64,000 bases of DNA from Bacteroidetes bacterium GWF2_38_335 (GTDB lineage Bacteria > Bacteroidota > Bacteroidia > Bacteroidales > GWF2-38-335), in assembly GCA_001769535.1 (NCBI GenBank), contig MEOH01000022.1, positions 186,001 through 250,000 on the forward strand, written 5' to 3'. Position 1 is the stretch's first letter. Each line of letters starts with the position of its first letter. This document shows positions 10,084 through 52,077 of this stretch, one piece after another. The notes under the pieces were generated by a model. The model did not search any database and was not told the origin of the DNA. It worked only from the letters and a program-made list of their open reading frames with translations. The position numbers were made by a program, and so were the translations under genes.

Positions 10084-10089
10084 GGGTTT

Positions 10090-12375
10090 TTAGATTTTAA
10101 TTCCTAATACCAAAACATCATCTACCTGATCAAGTTTTCCCTTCCAGTTCAAAAAGGTTTCCATTAAAACAGACTGCTGTTCAGACATAGGCCTGGATGT
10201 ATTTTTGGTTAGTAATTCTTTAAAAGGTTTGTATTTGAATTTTTTCCCCTGAGGGCCTCCAAACTGATCGGCAAAACCGTCAGTAAACATATAAATTCTA
10301 TCTCCTTTTTGCAATACAAATCCATGATTTGTAAAATCTTTCATTGTTGGGTAAATGGCGATCGGCATTTTGTCGCCATGCAATTCAGTTAATTCGCCCT
10401 TTGCAATGATATACAAAGGATTGTTTGCTCCTGCCCATTGACATTCATGGGTATCTGAATTAACAATTAACAGGGAAATATCCATCCCGTCCTTTTGCTC
10501 TCCATCCAAACCTTTTTGCTGAAGTGCATTAATGATTTCCATTCTTAAGATATTTAATATCTGATTGGCTTTTTTTATTTCCTGTTTTTGCACAATTTCA
10601 TTTAAGAAACTGATTCCCAGCATGCTCATAAACGCCCCGGGCACTCCATGACCTGTACAATCTGCCACAGCAACAAACAACTGATTTTCTATCTTTGTTG
10701 TCCAGTAAAAATCACCCGAAACAATATTTTTTGGTTTAAAAAGAACAAAATGTTCTCCTAAGACAGATCTTGATAATTCGCTTATTGGCAATACTGCCTC
10801 CTGAATTCTTTTTGCATAATTAATGCTATCGGTCACCTCTTTATGCACTTCTTCAATTTCTTCTTTCTGAATGGTTACCAGATCCCTTTGCGATTCAATT
10901 TCGTCGCGCTGGCTTGATATTTCCTCTTTTTGTTGATAAATCTCAATATTCTTTTGTTCAAGTAATATATTTGCTTTCTTCTTATTTTTAAATGCTCTAT
11001 ATGATATAAAAGCAACAAATATCATTAAAATAAATCCTATCAGTCCGCCAATAGTATACATCCTTTGCTCACTAATTGCCTTCTCGTGTTTATACTTTTC
11101 TTCCTTTTCTTTTGTGATATGTGTTATACTGTCTTTCGCAAACTGAATCTCATATTCTATCTGAAATTGTTTTTTATATGTTGCTTTTCTATTTTCCTGG
11201 TTTATGATACTATCCCGCATTTGAATATACAATTCATGCATTTCCAGAGCTTCCTTATATTCTCCTTTCTTCTCATGAATTTTTTTCAATAAAATTGCGG
11301 CATTCTGAATATTCTCAGGGTATCCCAATTCCTTTGCTGTTTGCAAACTCAAATCTGCAAACCTAAACGCTTCACCAATTTTATTTTGCTTCAACAATAA
11401 AGATGAAAGACATTCATAAGAAATAGTGATACCTACTTTATTATTAATTTCCTGGCGTAAAACAAGTGATTTTGTATATAAATCCAAAGCTTTCTTCTGA
11501 CCAAGTTCATAACATTCATCAGGAGACTCAGAGCAATATGGGTCTCCAAAAGTCTCATATAAACTACCAAGACTATTTAGGGAAGATGCGATTCCTGATT
11601 TATCATTAATTTCTTCTTGTAATTTAATTGATTTATTTAGATATTCAATAGCTTTTATATGACCATTTCTCATGCATTCATCCTTAGAGCCATTGAAAAA
11701 CAATTCATTATGAAAACTGTAAAGAAAAGCAATATTAGTATAGCATATTGCAATGCTGCTTTTATCCTTCAATAGAAAATTTATATTCAAGGCTTTATTG
11801 TAATACTCGTATGCCTTTAAATACTCACCCTGACTATCATAAACAAATCCGATATTATTATAAGAGGTTGCAATTCCTGATTTATTATCTATCAATATTT
11901 GCAGCTTCAATGCCCGATGATAGTATTCAAGTGCTTTTGGTATATTTCCCTGTTGGCGAAATATCATGCCAAGATTTAATAAAGAACCGGCCATTCCAAG
12001 CTTATCATCGATTTCTTCCTGTATAGGTAATGATTTATTAAAATATTCAAAAGCTTTAGAAATATCGCCTTGTTTTTCATACAAATAACCAAAATTATTT
12101 AATGCTAATGCATAATAAGCTAAATAGTATTCTCTTTCTTCATTCTTTGCTGTTTTTAAATTTTTCTGCGAAATATCCAGCAACTGTTGATTGTATTTGG
12201 GCCAGATATTTTCATCATATTCGGCTGAAATCATTTCATTTAGAATACTGCATTTAATTGTGTCGTGTTTTGCATTTTCAAAGACCAGTTTAAGCGAATC
12301 AATAGTATCTGAGCCTTGAGTCATCGCAGATAACATATTAACAAGCATTAAAAAAAGAATTATTTGAACACGCAT
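10090..12375 (-). CDS. TPR/coiled-coil/SpoIIE-type PP2C phosphatase, paralog 2
   Basis: I chose the ATG at 12375 rather than an upstream in-frame TTG at 12417. The ATG gives a clean signal peptide (MRVQIILFLMLVNMLSA) and avoids overlap with the upstream stop codon. The 761-residue product has TPRs, some interrupted by Cys-containing loops (SKDECMRNG and SPDECYELG), a coiled coil, a single transmembrane helix (GGLIGFILMIFVAFISY), a second coiled coil and a C-terminal SpoIIE phosphatase domain with SGDFYWT, ADCTGHG, KDGMD, FTDGFAD and VDDV. It is the middle gene of the triplet, starting 25 bp after paralog 3. Its phosphatase domain is clearly more divergent than the other two. Confidence 0.9.
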   Translation of the reverse strand: MRVQIILFLMLVNMLSAMTQGSDTIDSLKLVFENAKHDTIKCSILNEMISAEYDENIWPKYNQQLLDISQKNLKTAKNEEREYYLAYYALALNNFGYLYEKQGDISKAFEYFNKSLPIQEEIDDKLGMAGSLLNLGMIFRQQGNIPKALEYYHRALKLQILIDNKSGIATSYNNIGFVYDSQGEYLKAYEYYNKALNINFLLKDKSSIAICYTNIAFLYSFHNELFFNGSKDECMRNGHIKAIEYLNKSIKLQEEINDKSGIASSLNSLGSLYETFGDPYCSESPDECYELGQKKALDLYTKSLVLRQEINNKVGITISYECLSSLLLKQNKIGEAFRFADLSLQTAKELGYPENIQNAAILLKKIHEKKGEYKEALEMHELYIQMRDSIINQENRKATYKKQFQIEYEIQFAKDSITHITKEKEEKYKHEKAISEQRMYTIGGLIGFILMIFVAFISYRAFKNKKKANILLEQKNIEIYQQKEEISSQRDEIESQRDLVTIQKEEIEEVHKEVTDSINYAKRIQEAVLPISELSRSVLGEHFVLFKPKNIVSGDFYWTTKIENQLFVAVADCTGHGVPGAFMSMLGISFLNEIVQKQEIKKANQILNILRMEIINALQQKGLDGEQKDGMDISLLIVNSDTHECQWAGANNPLYIIAKGELTELHGDKMPIAIYPTMKDFTNHGFVLQKGDRIYMFTDGFADQFGGPQGKKFKYKPFKELLTKNTSRPMSEQQSVLMETFLNWKGKLDQVDDVLVLGIKI

Positions 12376-12400
12376 ATTGGTCCTGTCTGTTTGTATTTTT

Positions 12401-14788
12401 TTAAATTTTAATTCCAATTACCAAAACATCATCCACCTGGTCAAGACTTCCCTTCCAATTTACAAATGTTTCTTTTAATAGTGCTTGCTGTCCGGTAAGT
12501 GGCAGGTGCGTATTTTTGACCAAAAGTTCTTTAAACGGTTTATATTTGAATTTTTTCCCCTGAGGGCCTCCAAACTGATCGGCAAAACCGTCAGTAAAAA
12601 TGTAGATGTTATCGCCTTTGTTTATTGCCATCTCATGATTGACAAAAGATTCCATTTTATCATGAATGGCCACAGGCATTTTATCTCCTTTTATCTCTAC
12701 CAGATCATTGTTTCGTATCAGATACAAAGGATTGTTTGCTCCCGAAAACTGCAGGTGATTATGGGTGGGATCAATGGTTATAACCGAAATATCCATACCG
12801 TCTTTTTGCTCTCCCGATTTTCCCTGTTGCTTCAGCGCTTTTACAATTTTATTTCGCAGTTCGTTGAGAATCTCTGCCGGAGAAGTAATATTTTCCTTGC
12901 TAACGATTTCATTCAAAAAAGCTATTCCCAGCATGCTCATAAATGCCCCCGGAACGCCATGACCGGTGCAATCGGCAGCCAGAATGATTATTTTGTTGTC
13001 CTGTTCACCAATCCAGTAAAAATCGCCGCTTACAATATCACGGGGCATGTGAAGGATAAAACTGTCGGATACCACATGGTTTAATATGGCGATATCGGGA
13101 ATTACAGCTGATTGTATTCTGAATGCATAATGGATGCTGTCGGTGATTTCCTGTTTTTGTTCAGAGATGAGATCGCGTTGATCGGCAGCAAGGTTTCGCT
13201 GGGCTTCGATCTCATCTCGCTGGGCCGATATCTCTTCGTTTTTCATCTCAAGGTCAATATTGGCCTGGCGTTTTTGTCTGAACATCCTGAAAATGATAAA
13301 CAATATCACCAGCAACAACACCAAACCTCCAATAACGGAAAAAATAACCGTCTGCTGCCTTTTGTTTTCAAGCGATTGGGTTTTTATAAGCTCGTCATCA
13401 AGCAGCTTTTCATTTTTGAGCTTTTCGTTTTCAAGTTGTTTTTTCTCTGTCTGGTATTTGGTATCCATTTCTGCCAGAGCATTTGCCTTTTCTTCGGTGT
13501 ACATGCTGTCGCGCGCTTCGATGTATATCTCGGCATAATTCAATGCCTTTGATACGTTTCCTGTAAACTTATAGGCGGTCATCAGGACTTTTGCTGCTTC
13601 TCCTTTTCTGCGCGGACTGCCGGTTTCAAGAGCAATTGTATAAGCTTTTTCGCCAAATTCAAGGGCTTTCAGGTAGAGATTTCTTTTTTCGGATGATGAA
13701 ATTCCTGTTGAATCGGCCATTGCTCCGTAAAGGTTGGCCAGATTTCCATACAATGAGCTGGCGCCGTCCTTGTTTCCGATTTCTTCATGCAATGAAAGAG
13801 CTCTTGTGAAATATTCAGTTGCTTTTTTAAATTGCTTTGTATCAAGATACAATTCGGCAATATTATTGCAAATTTCTGCGGTTCCGTATTTGTCTCCAAC
13901 ACCTTCGATAATCTTTAGACACTCGAAATAATTAACCAGCGCCTTATCATACATTTTCTTTTCATTGTAAACGCTTCCGATGTTTGCATTGGCATAATAT
14001 TCACCTTGCAGAAAATTATATTTCTTTGAAATGGCAAGTGATTTTTGGAAATAAGTAAGTGCTTTATCAAAATCACCCTGGAGCGAATGAATGTTTCCAA
14101 TGTTGTTCAAAATATAAGCTACCCCTTCGTAATCCTCAATTTCCTCAGCAATCTTTAATGCTTTTAGGTAATTTTCCAGAGCAAGTTTATAATCTCCCAA
14201 ATCGGAATAAGTGCTGCCAATATAAGTGTAGCACATATTTTGTCCACGCTTGTTATCAAATTTTTTGGACACTTCAAGAGATTTTTTAAAATATTCCATG
14301 GCCGGTTTAAAATCACCTTTGTTAGATAATGTGGTGCCTGTGTTATAATATGCGGGAGCCAGTTCCTTATGTGCATCTGTCGAAATATCCTTAAATGCTG
14401 ATTTTTTCAGTTTTTCAAGAATGACAATGGCTTTTTTAAAACTCTCAAAGGCTTTGTCGTATTCGCCTATCCTGTTGTATATAAGTCCTATATATCTTTC
14501 ACCTGTTGCCGCTAAAATATCCAGTCGGCCCGAAACAACACTTTTCCCGTTATTTGCCTGCGAGGTTGAAGCAAGGTTTTTTGCTTTCAGATAATAGTAA
14601 ATACATGAGTCGGGATTGCTTTCTTCAAAAACATCTCCCATATCCAGATAAATCATTGCGCGGGTGGTGTCGTGTTTTGCTGATTCAAGCTGTTTTTTCA
14701 GTGAATTTAGTTTTTCCTGGGGATCCTGGGAAAAGAGGTTGATCATTGCGAAAAAAAGGACAATTGCGAGAGAGAAAAAATGTTTCAT
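12401..14788 (-). CDS. TPR/coiled-coil/SpoIIE-type PP2C phosphatase, paralog 3
   Basis: The 795-residue protein has the same plan as its two neighbours: signal peptide (INLFSQ), many TPR units, coiled coil, transmembrane helix (SVIGGLVLLLVILFIIF), coiled coil and SpoIIE phosphatase domain with all Asp ligands kept. It is first in the minus-strand triplet, so the promoter should lie upstream of 14788. I did not find a full TAnnTTTG box there. From DIVSGDFYW to the stop its residues differ from paralog 1 at about five positions in about 210. Its TPR region is much less similar, which points to gene conversion of the phosphatase end. Substrate is unknown. Confidence 0.9.
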   Translation of the reverse strand: MKHFFSLAIVLFFAMINLFSQDPQEKLNSLKKQLESAKHDTTRAMIYLDMGDVFEESNPDSCIYYYLKAKNLASTSQANNGKSVVSGRLDILAATGERYIGLIYNRIGEYDKAFESFKKAIVILEKLKKSAFKDISTDAHKELAPAYYNTGTTLSNKGDFKPAMEYFKKSLEVSKKFDNKRGQNMCYTYIGSTYSDLGDYKLALENYLKALKIAEEIEDYEGVAYILNNIGNIHSLQGDFDKALTYFQKSLAISKKYNFLQGEYYANANIGSVYNEKKMYDKALVNYFECLKIIEGVGDKYGTAEICNNIAELYLDTKQFKKATEYFTRALSLHEEIGNKDGASSLYGNLANLYGAMADSTGISSSEKRNLYLKALEFGEKAYTIALETGSPRRKGEAAKVLMTAYKFTGNVSKALNYAEIYIEARDSMYTEEKANALAEMDTKYQTEKKQLENEKLKNEKLLDDELIKTQSLENKRQQTVIFSVIGGLVLLLVILFIIFRMFRQKRQANIDLEMKNEEISAQRDEIEAQRNLAADQRDLISEQKQEITDSIHYAFRIQSAVIPDIAILNHVVSDSFILHMPRDIVSGDFYWIGEQDNKIIILAADCTGHGVPGAFMSMLGIAFLNEIVSKENITSPAEILNELRNKIVKALKQQGKSGEQKDGMDISVITIDPTHNHLQFSGANNPLYLIRNNDLVEIKGDKMPVAIHDKMESFVNHEMAINKGDNIYIFTDGFADQFGGPQGKKFKYKPFKELLVKNTHLPLTGQQALLKETFVNWKGSLDQVDDVLVIGIKI

Positions 14789-20361: not shown

Positions 20362-21918
20362 CTACATTTTTCCTTTTAAGACAGCCACCGGAATAAGCAT
20401 TTCCTCAAGTGAAATGCCACCGTGCTGGAATGTATTTTTGTAATACTTTACGTAATGGTTATAGTTGTTTGGATAAGCAAAGAAATCATCACCAGTGGCA
20501 AAAATATACACCGAACTGATATTTGTTTTTGGCAAGCGGGCATCAGCAGGATTGGTAATTTCAAAAACTTCTTTCGGGTTATAGTTTAGATTGCGTCCCT
20601 GTTTATAGCGAAGGTTTGTGGTGGTATTTTTGTCTCCAACAACTTTAATGGGATTATTTACCCTGATGGTTCCGTGATCGGTGGTAAGCACTACGGTAAC
20701 TCCTTTTTCAGCAAGTCCTTTTAGCAGCTCAATAAGCGGACTGTGCTCGAACCAGGAAAGTGTAAGCGAACGGTAAGCCGATTCATCATCTGCCAGCTCA
20801 CGGATCATTTTCATTTCAGTACGTGAGTGGGAGAGCATGTCAACAAAATTGTACACCACAACTGATAATTTATTGGATGAAATTTCATTGATATTTTCTA
20901 CCAGTTTTTGGCCTTCGCGCAGACTGTTTATTTTGTTGTACGAGAATTTATCTTTGATTCCGAATCTTTGAAGCTGACTCTGAATGAGATCTTCCTCATG
21001 CATGTTTTTTCCGCCTTCCTCTTCGTCGTCAAGCCACAGGTCGGGATATTTTAAATCTATATCCGCAGGCATCAGTCCGGCAAAAATTGAATTACGGGCA
21101 TATTGTGTTGCTGTTGGCAGGATGCTGCAAAAAATAGTATCATCTTCTATGGTAAAATAGTCCCTGATTGCAGGCTGGATAACTTTCCACTGATCATATC
21201 TGAGGTTGTCAATGAGAATGACTGCCACTTTCCGGTTGTTGTTGAGAAGCGGAATCACTTTATCTTTAAAGATATTGGGTGATAGGAGCGGGCGGTTTTT
21301 ATTTAATGGTTCAAACCAGCTGAAATAGTTTCTCTTGATAAATTTGGCAAATGAAGAATTGGCATCATTTTTTTGCATTTTCAGCACCTCATCCATGGTT
21401 CTGTCATTGGCTTTATCCATCTCAATTTCCCAATAAACCAATTCTTTGTATACAGCCACCCAATCATCAAACGAACTGGCACTGTTAATCTGCATACCCA
21501 GTTTTCCGAATTCGGTTTGGTATGACCTGGTTGTTTGTTCGGTAATCAGACGTTTGTTGTCAATAAGCTTTTTAATGGTCAGCAGAATCTGTTTGGGATT
21601 TACGGGCTTGATCAGGTAATCAGAAATTTTTGATCCGATGGCCTGCTCCATAATATCTTCCTCTTCGCTTTTTGTCACCATCACAATGGGAATTCCCGGA
21701 AACAGTTTGTTAATTTCAGTGAGCACTTCAAGTCCGCTTTTCCCGGGCATATTTTCATCCAGAAAGATGATGTCATAGGCATTTTGTTTAACCATTTGAA
21801 TGGCATCAGAGCCATTGCTGGCAGTTGAAACAACAAATCCTTTTTCTTCAAGAAACATGATGTGGGGTTTCAGGAATTCAATTTCATCATCGGTCCACAG
21901 GATGTGTATTTTGCGCAT
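20362..21918 (-). CDS. porX: PorX, T9SS response regulator with PglZ domain
   Basis: The 518-residue cytoplasmic protein has an N-terminal receiver domain (D10/D11 acidic pocket, phosphoacceptor D54 in IIFLDENMPG, T82, K104 in YLIKP) and a C-terminal PglZ/alkaline-phosphatase-superfamily domain. In the latter, metal and nucleophile motifs are visible: VILIDNLRYDQW, ILPTATQYARN and VVLTTDHGTIRV. This receiver-PglZ fusion is characteristic of PorX, which regulates type IX secretion in Porphyromonas and relatives, downstream of the kinase PorY and with the sigma factor SigP. It follows porW on the same strand with a 73-bp spacer that carries a heptamer repeat. Identification is confident from architecture and neighbour. 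Confidence 0.95.
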   Translation of the reverse strand: MRKIHILWTDDEIEFLKPHIMFLEEKGFVVSTASNGSDAIQMVKQNAYDIIFLDENMPGKSGLEVLTEINKLFPGIPIVMVTKSEEEDIMEQAIGSKISDYLIKPVNPKQILLTIKKLIDNKRLITEQTTRSYQTEFGKLGMQINSASSFDDWVAVYKELVYWEIEMDKANDRTMDEVLKMQKNDANSSFAKFIKRNYFSWFEPLNKNRPLLSPNIFKDKVIPLLNNNRKVAVILIDNLRYDQWKVIQPAIRDYFTIEDDTIFCSILPTATQYARNSIFAGLMPADIDLKYPDLWLDDEEEGGKNMHEEDLIQSQLQRFGIKDKFSYNKINSLREGQKLVENINEISSNKLSVVVYNFVDMLSHSRTEMKMIRELADDESAYRSLTLSWFEHSPLIELLKGLAEKGVTVVLTTDHGTIRVNNPIKVVGDKNTTTNLRYKQGRNLNYNPKEVFEITNPADARLPKTNISSVYIFATGDDFFAYPNNYNHYVKYYKNTFQHGGISLEEMLIPVAVLKGKM

Positions 21919-29267: not shown

Positions 29268-29298
29268 TTTGCAGAAATTTAAAACAAAGTTAATTTTG
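29268..29298 (+). promoter_or_regulatory. Promoter of gatE-gatD
   Basis: TTTG (29268-29271) and TAATTTTG (29291-29298) are separated by 19 bp, which is the canonical Bacteroidota -33/-7 arrangement. Transcription should start near 29305, leaving a leader of about 165 nt before the GTG of gatE. Confidence 0.65.
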
Positions 29299-29334
29299 AG
29301 AGGATGTATTTTTAAAATAAGTAAAACGTTTTAA

Positions 29335-29460
29335 ATGGAAAGTGCGCAAAAAAGAAGAACCTCTGTTAACCCAACCCTGGTGCAGTACGTGCCTTCTTTT
29401 GCTTGCAAAACCTCCCCTGATACATCAAAAATCTTAATTCATTTTTCATTAATAAACTAA
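29335..29460 (+). other. Possible 41-codon leader ORF before gatE
   Basis: An ATG-initiated frame of 41 codons (starting MESAQKRRTSVNPTLVQYVP) lies inside the predicted gatE leader. It stops 9 nt before the gatE start. AAAGAAG near 29350 can pair with CTTCTTTT near 29393, inside this ORF. It could be a translated leader or chance. There is no family match, and no run of Gln or Glu codons that would suggest attenuation. Confidence 0.25.
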
Positions 29461-29469
29461 TCTTTACCC

Positions 29470-31437
29470 GTGAAAAAATCATTTGATCCTTCTCAGAATT
29501 ACGAAAAAACCAAAAAGGCCATAGGGTACGTACCCCGAAAAAAAGCAAAACAGAAAGATTATGACCGCATCGGTTTTATGTCAGGTCTCGAAGTGCACCA
29601 GCAACTTTTGACTAAAAGCAAATTGTTCTGCCGCTGCCCTGCAGGTGTTTTCCATGATCATGAGGATTATGATGCCGAAGTTATTCGCCACATGCGTCCA
29701 ACCCTCAGTGAACTGGGCGAGTACGACGGTACTGCATTGATGGAATTTAAAACCCGTAAGGAAATTATTTACAGGGTAAACAATAAAACCGCTTGTACCT
29801 ACGAGGTGGATGATACACCCCCGTTTAAAATCGACCCCGAGGCGCTCGAAATAGCACTTGAAATTTCCATTTTGAGTAAATTAAATGTTGTGGGCGAAGT
29901 TCACATTACCCGCAAGCAATATCTCGACGGAAGTATTCCAACCGGTTTCCAGCGTACCGCCATTTTAGGCGTTGAAGGTGAATTCCCCATTAAAAATAAA
30001 ACCATCAGGTTAATACAGCTTTCCATCGAGGAAGATTCATGCCGCGAAGTTTCAGATATCGGTCACACCCGCATATATAAGACCGATCGCCTGGGTATGC
30101 CTCTTATCGAAACAGTGACCTACCCCGACATGAAAAATCCTGACGAAGTGAAGGAAGCCTGCAACTATATCCGCTTTCTTAACAGAAGTACCGGAAAAGT
30201 TAGAACTGGTATTGGTGCCGGACGAGAAGATGTCAATGTCAGCTGCAAAGGTGGTACCCGCGTTGAAATTAAAGGTGTTGCCCATACAAAATGGATTCCC
30301 GAACTTACCCACAACGAATGTTTCAGACAGTGGGCTTTGCTTGCCATCAGAGATGAACTGAATAAACGCATTGATGAGAAAAAATGGAAAATGAACCATC
30401 TTAATCTGGATTGGGATGCAGTGGATAGTTCAGTGGAACCATTGAAATCTTCACATGAAAGAGGTGAAAAGATTTTATGCATCAGTTTGCCCGAGTTTAA
30501 TGGATTGATGTCACATTTTACCCAACCCGGAAAAATGTTTGCCGATGAGTTTAGCGACAGATTAAAAGTGATTGCTTGTATCGAAAAACCAAATTTAATT
30601 CATACTGAACAATTAAAACCGGTTGTAAAGGAAAAAACCTGGGATGTTCTGAAAAAGAAAATGAAAGCTGGTGAAAATGATGCACTCCTTATTATTTTCT
30701 GCCCTGAAGCTGATGTGAAAACAGCCCTTGATACTATTGAAGAGCGCTGTCACATGGCCTTTAACGGCGTGCCAAACGAAACAAGAAAATCTTTCGAAGA
30801 CGGAACAACCATCTTTGAAAGGGTGCTCCCCGGTGCCGACAGAATGTATCCCGATACCGATTCTGCACCAATTCCACTTGAAGACTCTTATATTAAAAAA
30901 TTAAGTAAAAATCTTCCGGTTGATGTGATCGATCGATTCAATCAACTCAATAAATGGGGTGTTCCCGATGACGCCTTTACCTATATCCTGAAGAAAAACC
31001 TGGTTCCCGTAATCGAAGAAATTGCTGAAAAACTGAAGTACAATCCAAAGTTTATTGGTACGTTCTTTGGCCATCAAATGAAATTCGTTGAGGGACATAA
31101 CACTTCTTCATCAGACTTTTCATACCACCGTGTTTTTGAAATGTTTGAATTCATAAAAAAACAAAAACTTGAGGTTGAAATTGCAAGGGATATGCTTCCT
31201 GTAATATATACCCATCCTCAAATGGACTTTGATTCGGTTCTGACCATCATTGGTTTTAAAAAGAAATCAAAAGAATCATTGCTGGCTCCCATTAGCTTCC
31301 TGAAAGATAAATTCAAGGAGACAGGGCGCAAACAAACACCCAAAACAACAAACGACTGGGTTATGGGTCAGTTGCGCAAACAGGCAGTTGGAAACATGAG
31401 CCTGAAAGAGCTTAAAAAAGCCGTTGAGAAAAATTAA
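29470..31437 (+). CDS. gatE: Glu-tRNA(Gln) amidotransferase subunit E (archaeal type)
   Basis: GatE is the tRNA-binding and kinase subunit of GatDE. It phosphorylates Glu on misacylated Glu-tRNA(Gln) and accepts ammonia from GatD. The 655-residue protein has the GatB/E cradle (GLEVHQQLLTKSKLFCRCP near 39-57, ITRKQYLDGSIPTGFQRT, SIEEDSCRE, DRLGMPLIETVTYPDM), an AspRS-like GAD insertion around 370-450, then GADRMYPDTDSAPIPL and a C-terminal YqeY-like tail (NDWVMGQLRKQAVGNMSLKE). The Cys pair FCRCP, the GAD insertion and the length distinguish it from bacterial GatB (about 480 residues). It starts with GTG and has an N-terminal extension of about 30 residues. gatD follows by 32 bp. Finding GatDE in a Bacteroidota context is unexpected. 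Confidence 0.95.
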   Translation: MKKSFDPSQNYEKTKKAIGYVPRKKAKQKDYDRIGFMSGLEVHQQLLTKSKLFCRCPAGVFHDHEDYDAEVIRHMRPTLSELGEYDGTALMEFKTRKEIIYRVNNKTACTYEVDDTPPFKIDPEALEIALEISILSKLNVVGEVHITRKQYLDGSIPTGFQRTAILGVEGEFPIKNKTIRLIQLSIEEDSCREVSDIGHTRIYKTDRLGMPLIETVTYPDMKNPDEVKEACNYIRFLNRSTGKVRTGIGAGREDVNVSCKGGTRVEIKGVAHTKWIPELTHNECFRQWALLAIRDELNKRIDEKKWKMNHLNLDWDAVDSSVEPLKSSHERGEKILCISLPEFNGLMSHFTQPGKMFADEFSDRLKVIACIEKPNLIHTEQLKPVVKEKTWDVLKKKMKAGENDALLIIFCPEADVKTALDTIEERCHMAFNGVPNETRKSFEDGTTIFERVLPGADRMYPDTDSAPIPLEDSYIKKLSKNLPVDVIDRFNQLNKWGVPDDAFTYILKKNLVPVIEEIAEKLKYNPKFIGTFFGHQMKFVEGHNTSSSDFSYHRVFEMFEFIKKQKLEVEIARDMLPVIYTHPQMDFDSVLTIIGFKKKSKESLLAPISFLKDKFKETGRKQTPKTTNDWVMGQLRKQAVGNMSLKELKKAVEKN

Positions 31438-31469
31438 TTACTGATTAAGAATTTAGAAATATTACAGAC

Positions 31470-32855
31470 ATGAGCGACGATATTTTCCAAGGATACAAAG
31501 GCAAAGCATTAGAAATGCTTAAAAAATATAATGTCAGGGTATGGGGACAAGCAGTTATTGACACCACTCGTGGTGAGTTTAAAGGCACTGTGCTTCCAAG
31601 ATCTGAAAATGATGATGACCAGCATATTGTAGTAAAAATCATTACCGGCTATAATATTGGTATTGACATTAAAACCATTAAGCTGATGAAGGAAGTAGGC
31701 TATAAAAAAGCCAACTACCAGATTCCCGAAAAACAGTTTCCATACACCAAAGGCTTACCTAAGGTAAAACTTATCGGTACTGGCGGAACCATAGCTTCAC
31801 GCCTCGACTACAGAACTGGTGCGGTTATTCCTGCATTTTCTCCGGGCGAATTGTATGGAGCGGTTCCCGAACTTGCAGATATCTGTAATCTGGAAACAGA
31901 AAAAATCTTCGCCGTTTTCAGCGAAAATATGGGTCCGTCTCAGTATATCGGCCTTGCCAAAGCAATTAAAAAGGAAATTGAAAATGGTGTCGATGGCATC
32001 GTAATTGGTCATGGAACCGATACTTTGCATCATACCGGAGCTGCACTAACTTTTATGGTTCAGAATCCACCTGTTCCCATCGTATTGGTTGGCTCGCAGC
32101 GATCATCCGACCGTCCTAGCTCCGATGCAGCACTTAACCTGATGCATGCAATGACCACCGCCGGCTATTCTGATATTGCCGAGGTTATGGTTTGTATGTT
32201 TGGTCCTACTTCTGATGAATATGGTTTACTGCATAAAGGAACCAGGGTAAGGAAAATGCACTCGTCGTACCGCTCTACTTTCCGTACTATTGGTGACATA
32301 CCTTTGGCTACTGTTACAAGAAAAGGAGTTACTCCGATTCATAAAACCTACAACCACAGACGAAAAGACCGCAAAGTGGATATTTTTCCATATTTCTCGG
32401 ATAAAGTAACCATGCTGTATTATTATCCCGGAATGAAACCCGATACTTTGAATTCTATTATTGACAATGGCTACAAGGGCGTTGTATGGGTTGGAACCGG
32501 ACTGGGCCATGTTAACAAGGAAATGTATCCTGCCATTGAACGCGCCAAAGCAAACGGCGTTCACCAATATATGACTTTGCAGACAATCTGGGGATATGTT
32601 CACATGTTTGTATATGATACAGGCAGGGACATGATGGCCAAGGGAATTATTCCGGCCGGAAATATGCTCCCCGAAGTGGCTTATATTAAACTGGGCTGGG
32701 CTCTCGGACAGTCAGATGATCCTGAAGAAGTGAAGAGATTGATGCTTACCCCGATCAACGATGAAATTACCAAACGCGAACCTTATAACGGTTACCTGAT
32801 TTATCAGGGTGGAGTTCCGGAGGTTGAGGAGTTTATTAGGAAGGTTCATAAATAG
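31470..32855 (+). CDS. gatD: Glu-tRNA(Gln) amidotransferase subunit D (archaeal type)
   Basis: GatD is the glutaminase of GatDE and belongs to the type I asparaginase fold. The 461-residue protein has the GatD-specific N-terminal beta-barrel domain (about 20-70: VRVWGQAVIDTTRGEFKGTV). The asparaginase core follows, with TGGTIAS at 104-110, GHGTDT at 180-185, SQRSSDRPSSDA and a Lys in VRKMHSSYRSTF, which together match the catalytic Thr/Thr-Asp/Lys set. Ordinary L-asparaginases lack the N-terminal domain, and the pairing with gatE settles the call. Both genes probably share one transcript, from the promoter at 29268 to the terminator at 32869. Confidence 0.95.
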   Translation: MSDDIFQGYKGKALEMLKKYNVRVWGQAVIDTTRGEFKGTVLPRSENDDDQHIVVKIITGYNIGIDIKTIKLMKEVGYKKANYQIPEKQFPYTKGLPKVKLIGTGGTIASRLDYRTGAVIPAFSPGELYGAVPELADICNLETEKIFAVFSENMGPSQYIGLAKAIKKEIENGVDGIVIGHGTDTLHHTGAALTFMVQNPPVPIVLVGSQRSSDRPSSDAALNLMHAMTTAGYSDIAEVMVCMFGPTSDEYGLLHKGTRVRKMHSSYRSTFRTIGDIPLATVTRKGVTPIHKTYNHRRKDRKVDIFPYFSDKVTMLYYYPGMKPDTLNSIIDNGYKGVVWVGTGLGHVNKEMYPAIERAKANGVHQYMTLQTIWGYVHMFVYDTGRDMMAKGIIPAGNMLPEVAYIKLGWALGQSDDPEEVKRLMLTPINDEITKREPYNGYLIYQGGVPEVEEFIRKVHK

Positions 32856-32868
32856 AAGAAAAATATTT

Positions 32869-32909
32869 GCCGCGAATGCGCGAATTATTAGCGCATTCGC
32901 GGCTTTTTT
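32869..32909. terminator. Strong bidirectional terminator after gatD
   Basis: A perfect 13-bp stem (GCCGCGAATGCGC / GCGCATTCGCGGC) with a nine-base loop is followed by TTTTTT on the plus strand. On the minus strand an AT-rich T stretch follows it. It separates gatD from the convergent VWA gene. Confidence 0.88.
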
Positions 32910-43486: not shown

Positions 43487-45016
<1,530 letters not shown>

Positions 45017-45037
45017 TTAATTAATTTACAAAGAATA

Positions 45038-45067
45038 CAAATTTAATATAAATTCACAATTTATCAA
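45038..45067 (-). promoter_or_regulatory. Promoter of atpD-atpC
   Basis: On the minus strand TTG (45067-45065) and TAAATTTG (45045-45038) are 19 bp apart, a full Bacteroidota -33/-7 pair. The leader to the atpD ATG is about 30 nt. Confidence 0.65.
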
Positions 45068-45104
45068 TTTTTAAAAGACATATCTTAAAAAAAAATCAAA
45101 AAAA

Positions 45105-46079
45105 CTAAAAACTCCTGTCTATAAGCTGCCCAATGAGGTTTTCAAGCTCTTTTTTCCTGTTTTTTTCAACTGTTAATTCGTTCAGTATATTTTTTGATTT
45201 TTCTGAAAAATCCAATATTTTTTTCTTTGCCAGTTCCCTGATTCCAAGTTTTTTATAAATTTCTGTAACAGCAACGACTTTCCTGTTTAAGTCTTCTCCC
45301 GAAAATGAAAGCCATTTTTCGAGTTCCATCTTCTCGTCATGATCAGCCAAAGCAAGGGCTTTTATTAACAGGTAGGTTTTTTTGTTTGAAGCAATATCCC
45401 CGCCGATATTTTTCCCAAAAGTCTGAGTATTACCAAACACATCAAGGTAGTCATCCTGCAGTTGGAATGCCAGTCCGAGGTTGATCCCAGCTTCATAAAG
45501 TTTATCACATTCATCAATAGGAGCACCTGCGGCCAGAGCACCGATCTTGAGGCAGGCTGCCAGCAAAACAGCCGTTTTCAGTCTGATCATTTCAAGGTAC
45601 TGCTCTTCAGTTACAACATTCAGTTTTTCAAAATCCATGTCGTACTGTTGTCCTTCACAAACCTTTAACGCAGTGTCATTAAAAACGCTGAAAATATCAT
45701 TGCTTCGGGGGTTTTTACTTCCAATAAAAAAACCATAAGCCACAATCATCATAGCGTCTCCTGAAAGAATTGCAGTGTTTTCGTTCCATTTTTTGTGGAC
45801 AGTGGGCATATTTCTTCTAAGATCTGCTTTATCCATAATGTCATCATGAAGCAATGTGAAATTATGGAAAATTTCCAGTCCGGTTGCCTCTTTTAAAGCA
45901 ATTTCCGGATTATCACTATACAAGTTGGCGCTCATCATGGTAAGAACAGGTCTGAGTCTTTTTCCACCCACTTCGAGCACGTATTTTACAGGGGTATATA
46001 ACGCCAAGGGTTCCTTTTCAAAATTGAGGTTTTTCAAAGTTTCATTGGCAATATTCTGCAGTTCTTTGAAAGAGTACAT
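45105..46079 (-). CDS. Polyprenyl (prenyl diphosphate) synthase
   Basis: The 324-residue trans-isoprenyl diphosphate synthase condenses IPP with allylic diphosphates. The first Asp-rich motif is HDDIMD (79-83) after GGKRLRPVL, and the second is QLQDDYLDVFG. Product length (C15, C20 or longer) cannot be decided by eye. It starts one base after the stop codon of the epimerase gene, which suggests a coupled pair. It may supply quinone or undecaprenyl-carrier synthesis. Confidence 0.92.
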   Translation of the reverse strand: MYSFKELQNIANETLKNLNFEKEPLALYTPVKYVLEVGGKRLRPVLTMMSANLYSDNPEIALKEATGLEIFHNFTLLHDDIMDKADLRRNMPTVHKKWNENTAILSGDAMMIVAYGFFIGSKNPRSNDIFSVFNDTALKVCEGQQYDMDFEKLNVVTEEQYLEMIRLKTAVLLAACLKIGALAAGAPIDECDKLYEAGINLGLAFQLQDDYLDVFGNTQTFGKNIGGDIASNKKTYLLIKALALADHDEKMELEKWLSFSGEDLNRKVVAVTEIYKKLGIRELAKKKILDFSEKSKNILNELTVEKNRKKELENLIGQLIDRSF

Positions 46080-46080
46080 A

Positions 46081-47028
46081 TTACAGATTGTGTTTCATTT
46101 CAAAAAGGCCATTGTCAAGGATGTTTTTGATTCCGGTTTCAAGTGGTATCAATGGTTTATTGAGTATGGCGCGCATCTTTCTGGTATCTGGAAGTCGGCC
46201 GCTCATATCACCTTCTTTAAGGGGTGGCAGATGGACAATTTTGGATTTTGATCCCGTTAAACGGATAACAGTCTGAGCCAGTTCATATATAGTTGTTTCG
46301 ATGTTACTGCCAATATTGGCCACATCGTTGATGAGTTTGCTGTTGTTAAAAGCACTAATGCAAGTTTCAATATTGTCATCAATAAAACAGAAAGTACGGG
46401 TTTGTTTGCCATCGCCATATACCGTAATATCTTCATTATTAAGAGCGCTTATAAGGAATTTGGAGATTACAAAATGTCTGCTTTGCTTTGGTCCGTATGT
46501 ATTGAAAAACCTGAAAATTGTGTAATCCAGGCCAAACTCCTGCTGGTATGCTTTTAAAAAAGCTTCACCAAGGTTTTTCACGATGGCATAAGGAAGTCGG
46601 GAATTTAACGGAGTGGTGTATTCATTCTGAGGATATTCAACAGGTTCACCGTATATTTCAGAAGAGGATGAAAAATAAATTCTTTGCACCCCGGTGTTTT
46701 TTGAAAGGGTGAGGATGTTCTTGATCCCTTCAACATCCTGAAGAACAAGCAAAGGATGCATGAGTGTTTTCTGGACTCCCACAACTGCAGCATAATGAAA
46801 AACGAAATCAAAGCGGTAAGCCATCATTATTTCTGAAATATCCCTGCGGTTGTTCACATCACATTTAATGAATTTCCAGTTTTCTTTTTTTTCAACAGGA
46901 AGTTTTTTTACATGTCCCGTTGATAGATCATCAACAATTATTACAAAGTTGTCATCGTCTTCAATCAGTTTTTCGGCCAGTGAACTGGCAATAAAACCTG
47001 CTCCACCCGTAATTAATATTTTTCTCAT
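46081..47028 (-). CDS. NAD-dependent sugar-nucleotide epimerase/dehydratase
   Basis: The 315-residue extended short-chain dehydrogenase has the NAD motif TGGAGFIAS (7-15), VDDLSTG, FSSSSEIYG (Ser at about 121-123), and catalytic Y147 and K151 in YAIVK. RFFNTYGPKQ and VYGDGKQTRTFCFIDD also match UDP-glucose 4-epimerase, dTDP-glucose dehydratase and UDP-glucuronate decarboxylase relatives. I do not choose among them. It follows the atpG terminator and precedes the prenyl synthase by one base. Confidence 0.9.
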   Translation of the reverse strand: MRKILITGGAGFIASSLAEKLIEDDDNFVIIVDDLSTGHVKKLPVEKKENWKFIKCDVNNRRDISEIMMAYRFDFVFHYAAVVGVQKTLMHPLLVLQDVEGIKNILTLSKNTGVQRIYFSSSSEIYGEPVEYPQNEYTTPLNSRLPYAIVKNLGEAFLKAYQQEFGLDYTIFRFFNTYGPKQSRHFVISKFLISALNNEDITVYGDGKQTRTFCFIDDNIETCISAFNNSKLINDVANIGSNIETTIYELAQTVIRLTGSKSKIVHLPPLKEGDMSGRLPDTRKMRAILNKPLIPLETGIKNILDNGLFEMKHNL

Positions 47029-47053
47029 TTAATTCAGCTTAATTGTAAATCTA

Positions 47054-47087
47054 AAAAAAGAAAGCTTCCCGGGAAGCTTTCTTTTTT
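47054..47087 (-). terminator. Perfect palindromic terminator overlapping the atpG stop codon
   Basis: A 34-bp perfect palindrome centred on CCCGGG (AAGAAAGCTTCCC / GGGAAGCTTTCTT with A/T ends) ends inside the TAA of atpG. The T run follows on the minus strand. It closes the bactofilin-atpB-E-F-H-A-G unit. Confidence 0.82.
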
Positions 47088-47961
47088 ATCCTTTAAGGGC
47101 TTCAGCGCCACTGACTATTTCAAGAATTTCATTTGTAATGGATGCCTGTCTGGCTTTATTGTAGTGCAGACGAAGTTCCTTAATCAACTCGGTAGCGTTA
47201 TCTGTGGCCTTATGCATTGCTGTCATTCGGGCGCCGTGTTCAGCAGCATTCGAATCAAGCAGTGCTTTATAGAACTGGATCTTAAGTGATTTTGGGATCA
47301 GTTCTTTCATGATGTAGTCCTTTGTAGGTTCAAAAATATAATCGTTTACAATTTTTGATTTTCCGGTATTTATTTGCACCGGTAAAAATTGCTCTTCGGT
47401 AAGAATCTGAACAGCAGCATTTTTAAACTCATTGTAAACCAAAATGATTGTATCAAATTTGCCGGTAGTGAAATCATTCATTAATTCTTCGGCAAGAGGA
47501 GTGGTGCGCTCGAATGTCAGCTTATCGAAAATCGCATTGTTTCCCTGAATAAGGTTTAGTCCTTTGCCTTTTAGTCCGTCATATGATTTTTTACCAAGGG
47601 TAAGAAATGAAACTTTTCCTTTGGCAAGCAGGTCGCTGTATTTTTCAGCTGCAATTGACTGTGCTTTTTTGATGACATTTGCATTAAATGCACCACAAAG
47701 TCCTTTATTTGAGGTGATGGCAACAATCAGGATATTTTTTGCTTCCCGTTGTACGGCATATGGGTTGTCTAAAGCAGAATCGGTTGCATTGCTCAGGTTA
47801 CCAAGAATTTCATGAAGCTTAATGGCATAAGGACGCATGCGGACAATGGCATCCTGGGCTTTGCGAAGCTTGGCTGCAGACACCATTTTCATAGCACTTG
47901 TAATCTGTTTTGTTGAGTTAACAGATGTAATCCTTGTGCGTATTTCTTTTAAACTTGCCAT
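47086..47961 (-). CDS. atpG: ATP synthase gamma subunit
   Basis: The 291-residue central-stalk subunit begins MASLKEIRTRITSVNSTKQI and has SAAKLRKAQ, TSNKGLCGAFNANV, and the C-terminal NKARQASITNEILEIVSGAEAL. These are the conserved terminal coiled-coil helices that turn inside the alpha3beta3 ring. It follows atpA by 10 bp and is the last gene of the main atp operon. Confidence 0.97.
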   Translation of the reverse strand: MASLKEIRTRITSVNSTKQITSAMKMVSAAKLRKAQDAIVRMRPYAIKLHEILGNLSNATDSALDNPYAVQREAKNILIVAITSNKGLCGAFNANVIKKAQSIAAEKYSDLLAKGKVSFLTLGKKSYDGLKGKGLNLIQGNNAIFDKLTFERTTPLAEELMNDFTTGKFDTIILVYNEFKNAAVQILTEEQFLPVQINTGKSKIVNDYIFEPTKDYIMKELIPKSLKIQFYKALLDSNAAEHGARMTAMHKATDNATELIKELRLHYNKARQASITNEILEIVSGAEALKG

Positions 47962-47971
47962 TTGTCAGTAA

Positions 47972-49546
47972 TTATTGTTTCGAAATAAGGTCAAGGGCAA
48001 CTTTTTCAAGGGTAGCAGTTACTTCATCAGTAAGCTGACCGGCTTTTAAAGATTCCATTACGTCAGGGTGTTTAACCTTCAAAAATTCAACATACTGGCT
48101 TTCAAATTCCCTTACTTTATTTTTTGGTAATTTTGAAAGGAGGCCTTTGGTACCGCAGAAAATAATTGCGATTTGTTCTTCAACCGGCATGGGTGAATAT
48201 TGGCCTTGTTTCAAAATCTCAACGTTTTTGGATCCTTTGTCAAGTACTGCAAGGGTTGCAGCATCAAGGTCAGAACCAAATTTTGCAAACGCTTCAAGTT
48301 CACGGTACTGCGCCTGGTCAAGTTTAAGCGTACCGGCAACTTTTTTCATTGCTTTAATTTGTGCGTTACCTCCAACACGGCTCACCGAGATACCTACGTT
48401 GATGGCAGGACGAACCCCCGAGTTAAACAGATTGGATTCAAGGAATATCTGTCCGTCGGTAATTGAGATCACGTTGGTCGGAATGTAAGCAGAAACGTCA
48501 CCGGCTTGTGTTTCAATGATGGGGAGAGCGGTTAGAGATCCACCTCCTTTAACCAAATGCCGGATACTTTCGGGAACGTTGTTCATTTTTTTGGCAATCA
48601 CATCAGATTCGATGATTTTTGAAGCTCTTTCGAGAAGTCTGGAGTGAAGATAAAAAACGTCACCAGGGTAAGCTTCACGTCCGGGGGGTCTCCTTAGCAA
48701 AAGAGAAACTTCCCTGTAAGAAACAGCTTGTTTTGACAAATCATCATATATAATTAATGCGTGTCTTCCTGTATCCCTGAAAAATTCACCGATGGCACAT
48801 CCGGCAAATGGTGCGTAGAACTGGAGGGCTGCGGGGTCAGATGCAGTTGCGGTAACGATGGTTGTGTACATCATGGCACCGTGTTCCTCAAGAATTTTTG
48901 CTATGTTGGCAACAGTTGAACCTTTCTGTCCGATTGCAACATAAATACAATAAACCGGTTTTCCGGTTGAATAAAAATGCTTTTGATTGATGATGGTATC
49001 AATGGCGATGGCAGTTTTACCGGTTTGGCGGTCGCCGATGATCAGCTCGCGCTGACCTCTTCCGATTGGAATCATGGCGTCGATCGCTTTGAGACCTGTT
49101 TGAAGGGGTTCTTTAACGGGCTGACGGAAAATGACGGAAGGAGCAATTCTTTCAAGAGGCATCTCGTAAAGTTCGCCTTTTATTTCACCTTTACCATCAA
49201 TGGGATGGCCAAGCGTGTTGACAACCCTTCCAAGCAATCCTTCACCCACATGAATGGACGCGATGTGCTTGGTTCTTTTTACTGTTCCACCTTCTTTAAG
49301 ACCTTCTGAATTGCCCAGGAGCACAGCACCAACGTTATCTTCTTCAAGGTTGAGCACGATGCCTTTTACGCCGTTTTCAAACTCGATCATTTCGTTAGCC
49401 TGAACATTTGACAATCCATAAATGCGGGCAATACCGTCGCCAACCTGAAGAATGGTTCCTACTTCTTCAAGTTCTGCTTTGGTTTTGAAGCCCTCAATTT
49501 GTTGTTTTAAAATTTCAGATACTTCTGCAGGTTTAATATCAGCCAT
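47972..49546 (-). CDS. atpA: ATP synthase alpha subunit
   Basis: The 524-residue F1 subunit has Walker A GDRQTGKT at 171-178, [41 protein letters not shown] in pieces, and the alpha-type [14 protein letters not shown]. It binds nucleotide at the regulatory sites and forms the ring with beta. atpH lies 19 bp upstream and atpG 10 bp downstream. Confidence 0.98.
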
Positions 49547-49565
49547 TATTATAAGTTTTAGTCAA

Positions 49566-50120
49566 TTATAATTTTTTTTCGAATGTTGTATTTATTAAGT
49601 CCCTTTTCAGACTCTTGAGTTTTCCTGAGACACTGGTGTCAATTTGCTTATCATCAATTTGTAAAATGTAACCGCCAATTAAATCCTTGTCAATTTTCTC
49701 ATTCAGTTCAACACCGGTTTTGAAATTGCTTTTAATTAATTCGATCAGTTTTTTTCTCAGTGTTTCATCGATTTCAGCAGCCGTGATAAAAGTAACGGTT
49801 TTAATTCCGTGTTCTTTTTTATGCAGGTCGATGAAATACCTTGAAATATCGGTAAGAAAAATCTCACGTTTGTTTTCAATAACCAGCATAAGAAAAGACA
49901 TGGTTATCTGGTCAACCTTTTTTTCATATAAGGATGCCATGGCTTTCTTTTTTTCAGTGGTACTGATAACAGGTGAATTAAGCAATCCGGCCATTTCAGG
50001 AATGCGCCCCGAATTACTTATCAGAACCATATCCTGATAAATTTTCTCAAGGATATTTTTTTCCAAAGCAATTGAAAATAGTGCTTTGGCGTATCTTACC
50101 GAAATTTTACTCTGATTCAT
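49566..50120 (-). CDS. atpH: ATP synthase delta subunit
   Basis: The 184-residue peripheral-stalk subunit (OSCP family) starts ISVRYAKALFSIALE and ends with the conserved GGYILQIDDKQIDTSVSGKL. It connects F1 to the b dimer. Spacing to atpF is 13 bp. Confidence 0.95.
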   Translation of the reverse strand: MNQSKISVRYAKALFSIALEKNILEKIYQDMVLISNSGRIPEMAGLLNSPVISTTEKKKAMASLYEKKVDQITMSFLMLVIENKREIFLTDISRYFIDLHKKEHGIKTVTFITAAEIDETLRKKLIELIKSNFKTGVELNEKIDKDLIGGYILQIDDKQIDTSVSGKLKSLKRDLINTTFEKKL

Positions 50121-50133
50121 ACTTTAAATTTTC

Positions 50134-50628
50134 CTAGTTTAGGTTGATGTCTTTTAATAATGAATCAACGTATTCTTTCTGTTTGCCTGGTTCACTGAGT
50201 TCTTTCATAAGAATTTTTTCGGCAATTTCAATTGAAATAATAGCTACCTGATTTTTTATATCATTCATGGCAGCATCTTTTTCATTGGATATGGCTTCGC
50301 GTGCGGACAAAATTATTTTTTCAGCTTCTTCATTGGCCTGTTTTTTGGCCGTAGAAATCAGTTGTTCCTTAACTTCACGGGCTTCCTTCATGAGGCGGTC
50401 ACGTTCGGCTTTGGCTTCCAGAATAATTTTTTCATTGTCAGATTGCAGTTTAGCCATCTCTTCCTTTGCTTTCTCGGCCGATTTAAGAGCTCCTTCTATG
50501 GATTCTTCACGGTCTTTCAGCATTTTCAGGATGGGTTTCCAGGCAAATTTTTTCAGAAGGAACAACAGGACTGTAAAGGATAACAACATCCAAAATAACA
50601 GGCCTATTCCAGGGGTTACTAATTCCAT
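50134..50628 (-). CDS. atpF: ATP synthase b subunit
   Basis: The 164-residue protein has one N-terminal transmembrane helix (LLFWMLLSFTVLLFLLKKF) and a long charged amphipathic helix (about 30-150) that forms the peripheral stalk dimer. It follows atpE after a 78-bp spacer holding a hairpin. Only one b gene is visible, so the stalk should be a homodimer. Confidence 0.95.
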   Translation of the reverse strand: MELVTPGIGLLFWMLLSFTVLLFLLKKFAWKPILKMLKDREESIEGALKSAEKAKEEMAKLQSDNEKIILEAKAERDRLMKEAREVKEQLISTAKKQANEEAEKIILSAREAISNEKDAAMNDIKNQVAIISIEIAEKILMKELSEPGKQKEYVDSLLKDINLN

Positions 50629-50662
50629 ATATTAATATTTTAAATGTTAAAATTTAAATCAG

Positions 50663-50687
50663 CGGGTTCAGCCAACCGCTGAACCCG
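50663..50687 (-). other. Stem-loop between atpE and atpF
   Basis: CGGGTTCAGC (50663-50672) pairs with GCTGAACCCG (50678-50687) across a five-base loop, 20 nt after the atpE stop codon. On the minus strand no T run follows, so it may be an mRNA-processing or stabilising element rather than a terminator. Confidence 0.6.
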
Positions 50688-50706
50688 TTGAAAGTTTTTT
50701 TCTGAT

Positions 50707-50955
<249 letters not shown>

Positions 50956-50976
50956 TTATTAAATTTAACTTACAAA

Positions 50977-52077
50977 TTAATGTGCTTTCCCATGTGCTGC
51001 ATGTGCTTCGGAATGATGTTCCTCAGTGGCCATGCCAAAGTACAATGCTGAAAGCAGGGTAAAAACGTATGCCTGAATGAATGCCACCAGAAGTTCCAGT
51101 ACACTCATAAACAAGGCAAAACCAACTGATAATGGTGAAATACCAAATCCGCCTGCAGCACCCATTTCGCCAAAAATAAAGATCAGACTAAAGAATCCAA
51201 GCGCAATGATATGTCCGGCAGTTATATTGGCAAAGAGACGGACCATCAGGACGAAGGGCTTTGTAAACACTCCGATTATTTCCACAATTGGCATCAGGGG
51301 AAGAGGAAACTTAAGCCACCAGGGAACTCCGGGGGCATTGATAATATGTTTCCAGTATCCTTTGTTGCCGCTAAAGGTGGTAATGATAAAGGTGAAAAGA
51401 GCCAAAACCATCGTTACAGCAATATTTCCTGTAAGGTTTGCACCGCCTGGGAAAATGGGTATTAATCCCAAAAGGTTGTTTATGAAAATAAAAAAGAAAA
51501 TAGTCAGCAGATAGGGCATATACTTTTCATATTTTTTCTCACCAATGGAGGCTTTTGCCACATCATCCCTGACAAAAAGTATAAGTGGTTCAAGCAAAGA
51601 CTGCAGTCCTTTGGGGGCTTTTCCCTGTCGTCTGGTGTATGAGCGGGCTACCGATATAAAAACCCAAAGAATAAGTGCAAAACTGAATAACAATGCAACA
51701 ACATTTTTGGTAATTGAAAAATCATAGACTGCGCTTCCGTCCTTTGCTTTTATTTTTCCCTCTTCAAGGAGGTAATCGCCGTATTGCTTTGGACCATGTC
51801 CTTCGCCTTCAAATTTATTTGACATGAAAAATACCAATCCGTTTTTCTCTGTAAAAAGGATAACAGGCAGGGGTATACTCACTTCCTGTTCTCCAAACTT
51901 ACCAATATGCCATTCGTGGGCATCAAGAATATGATGCAGGATGAATGAGCCGGGCTGGAACTTATTTTCCTCACCGTGTCCTTTTTTATCATTTTTCTCG
52001 TTGGAAAAAGCGTTTAAACTGAAGAACATCAGTGTGATTATAAAAAATATACCAATGAAATTTTGTCTGTAGTGCAT
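50977..52077 (-). CDS. atpB: ATP synthase a subunit with long N-terminal exported region
   Basis: The 366-residue Fo subunit has the stator Arg in MVRLFANITAGHI and the typical last helices. Before the first membrane helix it carries a signal-like segment (FIITLMFFSLNAFS) and about 100 periplasmic residues with HHILDAHEWHIG. This extension is a feature of Bacteroidota a subunits. It ends in a His-rich tail (EEHHSEAHAAHGKAH). It precedes atpE by 30 bp. Confidence 0.96.
   Translation of the reverse strand: MHYRQNFIGIFFIITLMFFSLNAFSNEKNDKKGHGEENKFQPGSFILHHILDAHEWHIGKFGEQEVSIPLPVILFTEKNGLVFFMSNKFEGEGHGPKQYGDYLLEEGKIKAKDGSAVYDFSITKNVVALLFSFALILWVFISVARSYTRRQGKAPKGLQSLLEPLILFVRDDVAKASIGEKKYEKYMPYLLTIFFFIFINNLLGLIPIFPGGANLTGNIAVTMVLALFTFIITTFSGNKGYWKHIINAPGVPWWLKFPLPLMPIVEIIGVFTKPFVLMVRLFANITAGHIIALGFFSLIFIFGEMGAAGGFGISPLSVGFALFMSVLELLVAFIQAYVFTLLSALYFGMATEEHHSEAHAAHGKAH

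Follow-up and report, generated by a model that had tools for sequence, protein, structure and literature searches.

What is an archaeal-type amidotransferase for Gln-tRNA(Gln) synthesis doing in a bacterium? The question is raised by two adjacent genes in a 64,000-nucleotide stretch of contig MEOH01000022.1 from Bacteroidetes bacterium GWF2_38_335 (positions 186,001-250,000; hereafter the window, whose own numbering is used for all locus coordinates), which a preliminary description had named gatE and gatD. Reviews hold that the Glu-tRNA(Gln) amidotransferase GatDE is today confined to archaea, that no archaeon has the glutaminyl-tRNA synthetase GlnRS, and that both are tied to an unusual, co-evolved archaeal tRNA(Gln) (PMC9499178, PMC8007984), and we found no report of GatDE in bacteria in the literature searched. 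Comparison at the sequence level confirms that the reading frames at 29470-31437 and 31470-32855 encode archaeal-type GatE and GatD in a Bacteroidota genome. The pair most likely forms a working amidotransferase, which would give a cell that already has GlnRS a second, salvage or proofreading route to Gln-tRNA(Gln). Below, G000 is the window's own genome, other G numbers are sampled genomes, and G001 belongs to the same genus as G000.

An archaeal-type gatE-gatD pair in Bacteroidota

The product of the upstream gene scores 422.6 bits against TIGR00134 (cut-off 319.6) and 484.8 bits against NF003107 (cut-off 456), both curated NCBIfam models, while every score with GatB models is far under the cut-off. 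Its best PDB matches are the archaeal chains 2D6F_C and 1ZQ1_C, and Foldseek with its AlphaFold model (mean predicted local distance difference test score, pLDDT, 78) retrieves 2D6F and 1ZQ1 at E ~1e-35 to 1e-32 and GatB chains at 1e-17 or worse. Residues E41, H43, E187 and E188 (GatE numbering) are conserved across all GatE and GatB compared, and GatE-specific residues are common to archaeal and Bacteroidota copies. The landmarks listed for GatE in the preliminary description held in part: the PF02934 cradle is present, and the match to the GAD insertion falls just below the Pfam cut-off. The C-terminal tail, in which Pfam found no YqeY domain at E<=0.001, appears in alignments that extend to profile position 625 of 630 in NF003107 and likewise to the profile end in TIGR00134, and is predicted to be helical by AlphaFold.

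GatD scores 489 bits against TIGR02153 (cut-off 324), also matches NF003217, and has 2D6F_A (E 6e-112) and 1ZQ1_A (E 1e-110) as best PDB matches. Its catalytic domain resembles that of type I L-asparaginases; unlike them, it has a GatD_N domain, adjoins gatE and scores higher with GatD than with asparaginase models. The N-terminal domain and GHGTDT motif claimed earlier were both recovered, with PF18195 over its cut-off and with the positions aligned to T101, T177, D178 and K254 of M. thermautotrophicus GatD, which we take to be its catalytic residues, invariant in all 32 sequences aligned (30 Bacteroidota and 2 archaeal). The archaeal enzymes of M. thermautotrophicus (2D6F) and P. abyssi (1ZQ1) and the Bacteroidota copies thus share both subunits, domain order, GatD_N, the aligned catalytic positions and the GatE-specific residues, at identities of 31-38% for GatE and 43-45% for GatD.

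That the pair comes from archaeal contamination or a chimeric contig, a condition under which the preliminary description would fail, has next to no probability. The contig is 376,939 bases long and carries Bacteroidota-like genes; the G+C content of gatE (41.0%) and gatD (43.1%) indicates local composition (window, 38.9%). Moreover, independent assemblies hold the genes together with GlnRS, including the single-contig genomes G604, G701, G324, G162 and G154, in each of which GatE or GatD is over its cut-off; the contamination explanation is thereby refuted.

The pair is widely and unevenly spread. Of 395 genomes sampled across the phylum, 30 have a GatE over the TIGR00134 cut-off, most of them in classes other than the window's; within the order, a GatD over the TIGR02153 cut-off occurs in 163 of the 393 genomes sampled (~40%). 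A GatE-like PF02934 protein is found in 77 of 80 good GatD-positive genomes, three of the 80 having GatB in addition. Wherever both genes are readable (30/30 loci), gatD lies directly after gatE on the same strand. Comparing the genus's two species gives a ratio of nonsynonymous to synonymous change (dN/dS) of 0.037 for gatE, with dS near saturation, which points to purifying selection. A conserved neighbourhood of the pair was considered and rejected, local synteny being limited to one family. The search of genome contigs for archaeal and other-phylum homologues found one relative, and no GatDE homologue was found among viral contigs. The plasmid search found one haloarchaeal gatE, on the Natrinema plasmid CP031304.1 (L169:4001-5664), which shifts frame part-way into two overlapping reading frames and is absent from the gene list. 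Automated databases may already label these Bacteroidota proteins GatD and GatE.

In a GatE tree rooted on 13 GatB, the Bacteroidota GatE form a single clade (support 91/73) that lies beside, not within, the three archaeal GatE (100/99; one of them half-length). Placement of GatE inside the bacterial GatB clade, part of the other outcome that would have undone the preliminary description, was checked and did not occur, GatB forming a separate clade (100/100). GatE and GatB share their catalytic fold and key residues; the two systems differ in their ammonia source, which is an amidase-type GatA in bacterial GatCAB and an asparaginase-type GatD in GatDE. The GatD tree likewise has a single Bacteroidota clade (99/95), on an asparaginase outgroup with poor rooting and very long branches. 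Lateral acquisition, as proposed earlier, appears likely and is made plausible by the patchy spread; the nesting within archaea is not seen, and trees with three archaeal GatE fix neither donor nor direction. At L200, in a genome of another class (G186), a gatE-gatD pair is nested in the clade of the window's order, through either within-phylum transfer or a misbinned contig.

Synthetases and tRNA(Gln) accompanying GatDE

The known setting of GatDE is a cell without GlnRS and with a non-discriminating glutamyl-tRNA synthetase (GluRS). G000 differs, having a full GlnRS (TIGR00440, 764 bits), which together with a bacterial GluRS makes up its two class Ic synthetases. Its only PF02934 match is GatE itself, so that no GatB was found in this genome search; GatA and GatC were not searched for. 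Company was counted in two GatDE sets, the 80 good GatD-positive genomes and 40 GatDE-positive or candidate genomes, and GlnRS is over its cut-off in 75/80 and 36/40, respectively. The expectations of the preliminary description that GlnRS might be missing, and that GatDE stands in for it, are therefore contradicted in G000 and across the lineage, while its suggestion that GatCAB might be absent agrees with the lack of GatB, as far as that subunit goes.

Several genomes without GlnRS appear incomplete. In G281 a contig break is likely, GluRS also being a fragment, and G085 of the same genus has GluRS, GlnRS and AsnRS (asparaginyl-tRNA synthetase) on a single contig; the G010 assembly reaches 88% completeness; and G569, of the same genus as G468, has GlnRS. 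By contrast, G317 and G344 (another class, same family, 99% complete) seem truly to lack GlnRS and have GatB, GatE and AsnRS; in them the making of Gln-tRNA may be shared by, or split between, GatDE and GatCAB.

AsnRS is over its cut-off in 37 of the 40 genomes of the second set, the exceptions being G000, G210 and G281. Contrary to what had been expected, none was found over the cut-off in the G000 assembly, although G001 has one; the asnS surroundings of G001 are non-syntenic in G000, and the missing gene is probably an assembly gap, with loss as the alternative. G000 does have AspRS (aspartyl-tRNA synthetase; L205:2411-4162) and a tRNA-Asn(GUU) with U1-A72 and G73 (L081:1501-1577).

Archaeal GatDE reads the D-loop and the A1:U72 pair of tRNA(Gln), and archaeal tRNA(Gln) has A1:U72 (PMC9499178), whereas in bacteria U1-A72 and G73 are among the Gln identity elements and amidotransferases depend on U1-A72 (PMC9976931). 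In G000 both tRNA-Gln genes have U1-A72, as does every tRNA-Gln read from relatives, whether these carry GatDE or not, and A73 predominates. Therefore GatDE, if it acts on tRNA(Gln) here, must read it differently from the archaeal enzyme. Most tRNA(Gln) of the order have A73 in place of the G73 of bacterial identity, with or without GatDE (L086, L093, L248-L277). A73 as an archaeal-like adaptation was accordingly rejected, being equally usual in GatDE-negative relatives. A longer D-loop occurs in 10 of 17 GatDE-positive and 1 of 13 GatDE-negative cases (Fisher p 0.007), an association confounded by kinship, the CUG isoacceptor and a long-type query. This comparison, kept as a lead only, used a biased sample (tRNA-Gln loci L248-L277, L086, L009, L017 and L019) and is weakened by extra loci, since G006 and G025 have both types and GatDE-negative G007 has the long type.

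Role of GatDE and its alternatives

Since GatDE coexists with a full GlnRS and a bacterial U1-A72 tRNA(Gln), we favor a second, salvage or proofreading route as its role, and this is what we infer from the company it keeps. Because the chemistry is established for the GatDE family, GatD would free ammonia from Gln or Asn, and GatE would use ATP to activate the side-chain carboxylate of the tRNA(Gln)-bound Glu, which the ammonia would attack to yield Gln-tRNA(Gln). The substrate, Glu-tRNA(Gln), would be made by the local GluRS, by error or under Gln scarcity, and then corrected, with GatDE acting beside GlnRS and on a U1-A72 tRNA, unlike in archaea. A more specific version, proofreading by conversion, in which bacterial GatDE was re-fitted to U1-A72 tRNA(Gln) and repairs Glu-tRNA(Gln) in GlnRS-containing cells, is put forward tentatively, the odds being somewhat against it; no such role is described for any GatDE in the literature searched.

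Several observations weigh against the second-route role. No tRNA(Gln) read has the A1-U72 signal of the archaeal enzyme, and activity on the local tRNA is therefore not assured. The majority of genomes sampled in the order lack GatDE, which is thus dispensable there. Arg358 of T. thermophilus GluRS, tried as a marker of discriminating GluRS and rejected, is Arg in G000 and also in the GlnRS-less G317 and G344; it fails to separate GlnRS-positive from GlnRS-negative genomes in the phylum and leaves glutamylation of tRNA(Gln) by the local GluRS unsupported. Finally, glnS adjoins gatE-gatD in only 2 of ~111 genomes, where by our own estimate, at 3,500 genes each, ~0.06 such neighbors are expected by chance. 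The two cases themselves speak for the role: in G433, glnS, gatE and gatD are consecutive on one strand, with a 100-nucleotide gap between glnS and gatE and with gatE and gatD touching; in G044, glnS is convergent with gatE-gatD.

The model of the preliminary description, in which GatDE replaced GlnRS and GatCAB as the main route to Gln-tRNA(Gln), is highly improbable. It could draw on the lack of GatB in G000, on G317 and G344, where GatE and GatB without GlnRS mean that an indirect route must run, and on G428 and G468, which have GatE and neither GlnRS nor GatB. However, the GlnRS of G000 refutes it for this genome, the counts in both GatDE sets oppose it elsewhere, and the GlnRS of G569 makes the absence in G468 look like an assembly gap. 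Re-targeting of GatDE to another substrate such as Asp-tRNA(Asn) has more to recommend it and is still unlikely. Bacterial GatCAB offers a precedent, being kept for Asn in bacteria with GlnRS and AsnRS and retained beside GlnRS in D. radiodurans, T. thermophilus and B. bacteriovorus (PMC4206432); the G000 assembly yielded neither AsnRS nor GatB for its U1-A72, G73 tRNA-Asn(GUU), and its tRNA(Gln) is without the archaeal signal. Against this, AsnRS accompanies nearly all of the second set, G001 included, archaeal GatDE serves Glu-tRNA(Gln) (PMC9499178), the neighbor in G433 and G044 is glnS and not asnS or aspS, and the GatE-specific residues are conserved from archaea to Bacteroidota.

It is also rather improbable that GatDE is a relic of little use, an acquired pair drifting out beside GlnRS, as its absence from so much of the order might suggest. 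Only 2 of the 30 GatE over the cut-off in the phylum have an in-frame stop inside the match, the catalytic residues are invariant, and dN of gatD is low (0.08) against saturated synonymous change; in addition, the promoter element is kept in the sister species and the two genes stay together at every readable locus. What the sequences themselves establish is the family, the intact catalytic residues, gene adjacency, spread, purifying selection, the company of GlnRS and the tRNA acceptor pair; the activity, substrate and salvage role of GatDE would follow from these.

The locus, the window and GatDE outside archaea

The features of the locus are collected in the table. The pattern of the promoter-like element occurs 8 times in the window against 5.5 expected, which is chance level, and 30 of the 31 bases of the element upstream of gatE are identical in G001. 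RNA folding of the terminator hairpin (32869-32903, with the T run to 32909) gives -27.9 kcal/mol (z -5.85), and none of 200 shuffles was equally stable. The earlier claims of a bounding Bacteroidota promoter and strong terminator, and of expression signals of the host type, stand on these results together with the local G+C content.

Table. Features of the gatE-gatD locus in window coordinates
Feature	Positions	Strand	Details
Promoter-like TTTG-N19-TAATTTTG, Bacteroidota type	29268-29298	+	Pattern match; 171 nucleotides upstream of gatE
gatE	29470-31437	+	GTG start, 655 amino acids; Glu-tRNA(Gln) amidotransferase subunit E
GatB/GatE catalytic cradle, GatE residues 38-475, insertion included	29581-30894	+	PF02934 (GatB_N)
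GAD (AspRS-like) insertion, GatE residues 330-420	30457-30729	+	PF02938, E 6e-4, 20.4 bits (Pfam cut-off 23.4)
C-terminal helical tail, YqeY-like position, GatE residues ~485-655	30922-31434	+	Model alignments, AlphaFold
gatD	31470-32855	+	461 amino acids; Glu-tRNA(Gln) amidotransferase subunit D, asparaginase-type
GatD_N domain, GatD residues 35-71	31572-31682	+	PF18195, 42.6 bits (cut-off 25.7); separates GatD from free L-asparaginase
Thr107 of GatD	31788-31790	+	Aligns with Thr101 of M. thermautotrophicus GatD; T in 32/32
Thr183-Asp184 of GatD (GHGTDT)	32016-32021	+	Aligns with Thr177-Asp178 of M. thermautotrophicus GatD; TD in 32/32
Lys262 of GatD	32253-32255	+	Aligns with Lys254 of M. thermautotrophicus GatD; K in 32/32
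Intrinsic terminator	32869-32909	+	13-bp perfect stem, 9-nucleotide loop, 6 T

Elsewhere in the window, three tandem related genes of 715, 775 and 795 codons (7936-14788) have 300-nucleotide end stretches that are 71-92% alike, and TPR and SpoIIE phosphatase domains occur in the two that were scanned. At 20362-21918, a response regulator receiver is fused to a PglZ domain, the domain arrangement of the type IX secretion protein PorX. In an ATP synthase cluster (43487-52077), two ATP-synt_ab genes flank a polyprenyl synthetase gene (45105-46079), and two long open reading frames (58876-61437, 853 codons; 61577-63160, 527 codons) have no Pfam match at E<=1e-8.

That GatD occurs in about 40% of the sampled order, where GlnRS and a bacterial tRNA(Gln) nearly always accompany it, contradicts the statement that GatDE is restricted to archaea. 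For annotators, it means that gatD and gatE calls in Bacteroidota are real. Moreover, the coexistence of GatDE and GlnRS provides a natural test of the link to tRNA(Gln) co-evolution, namely, which tRNA features are read and what GatDE adds. If proofreading by conversion is indeed its role, GatDE and GlnRS would be compatible, and the lack of GlnRS in archaea would need another reason.

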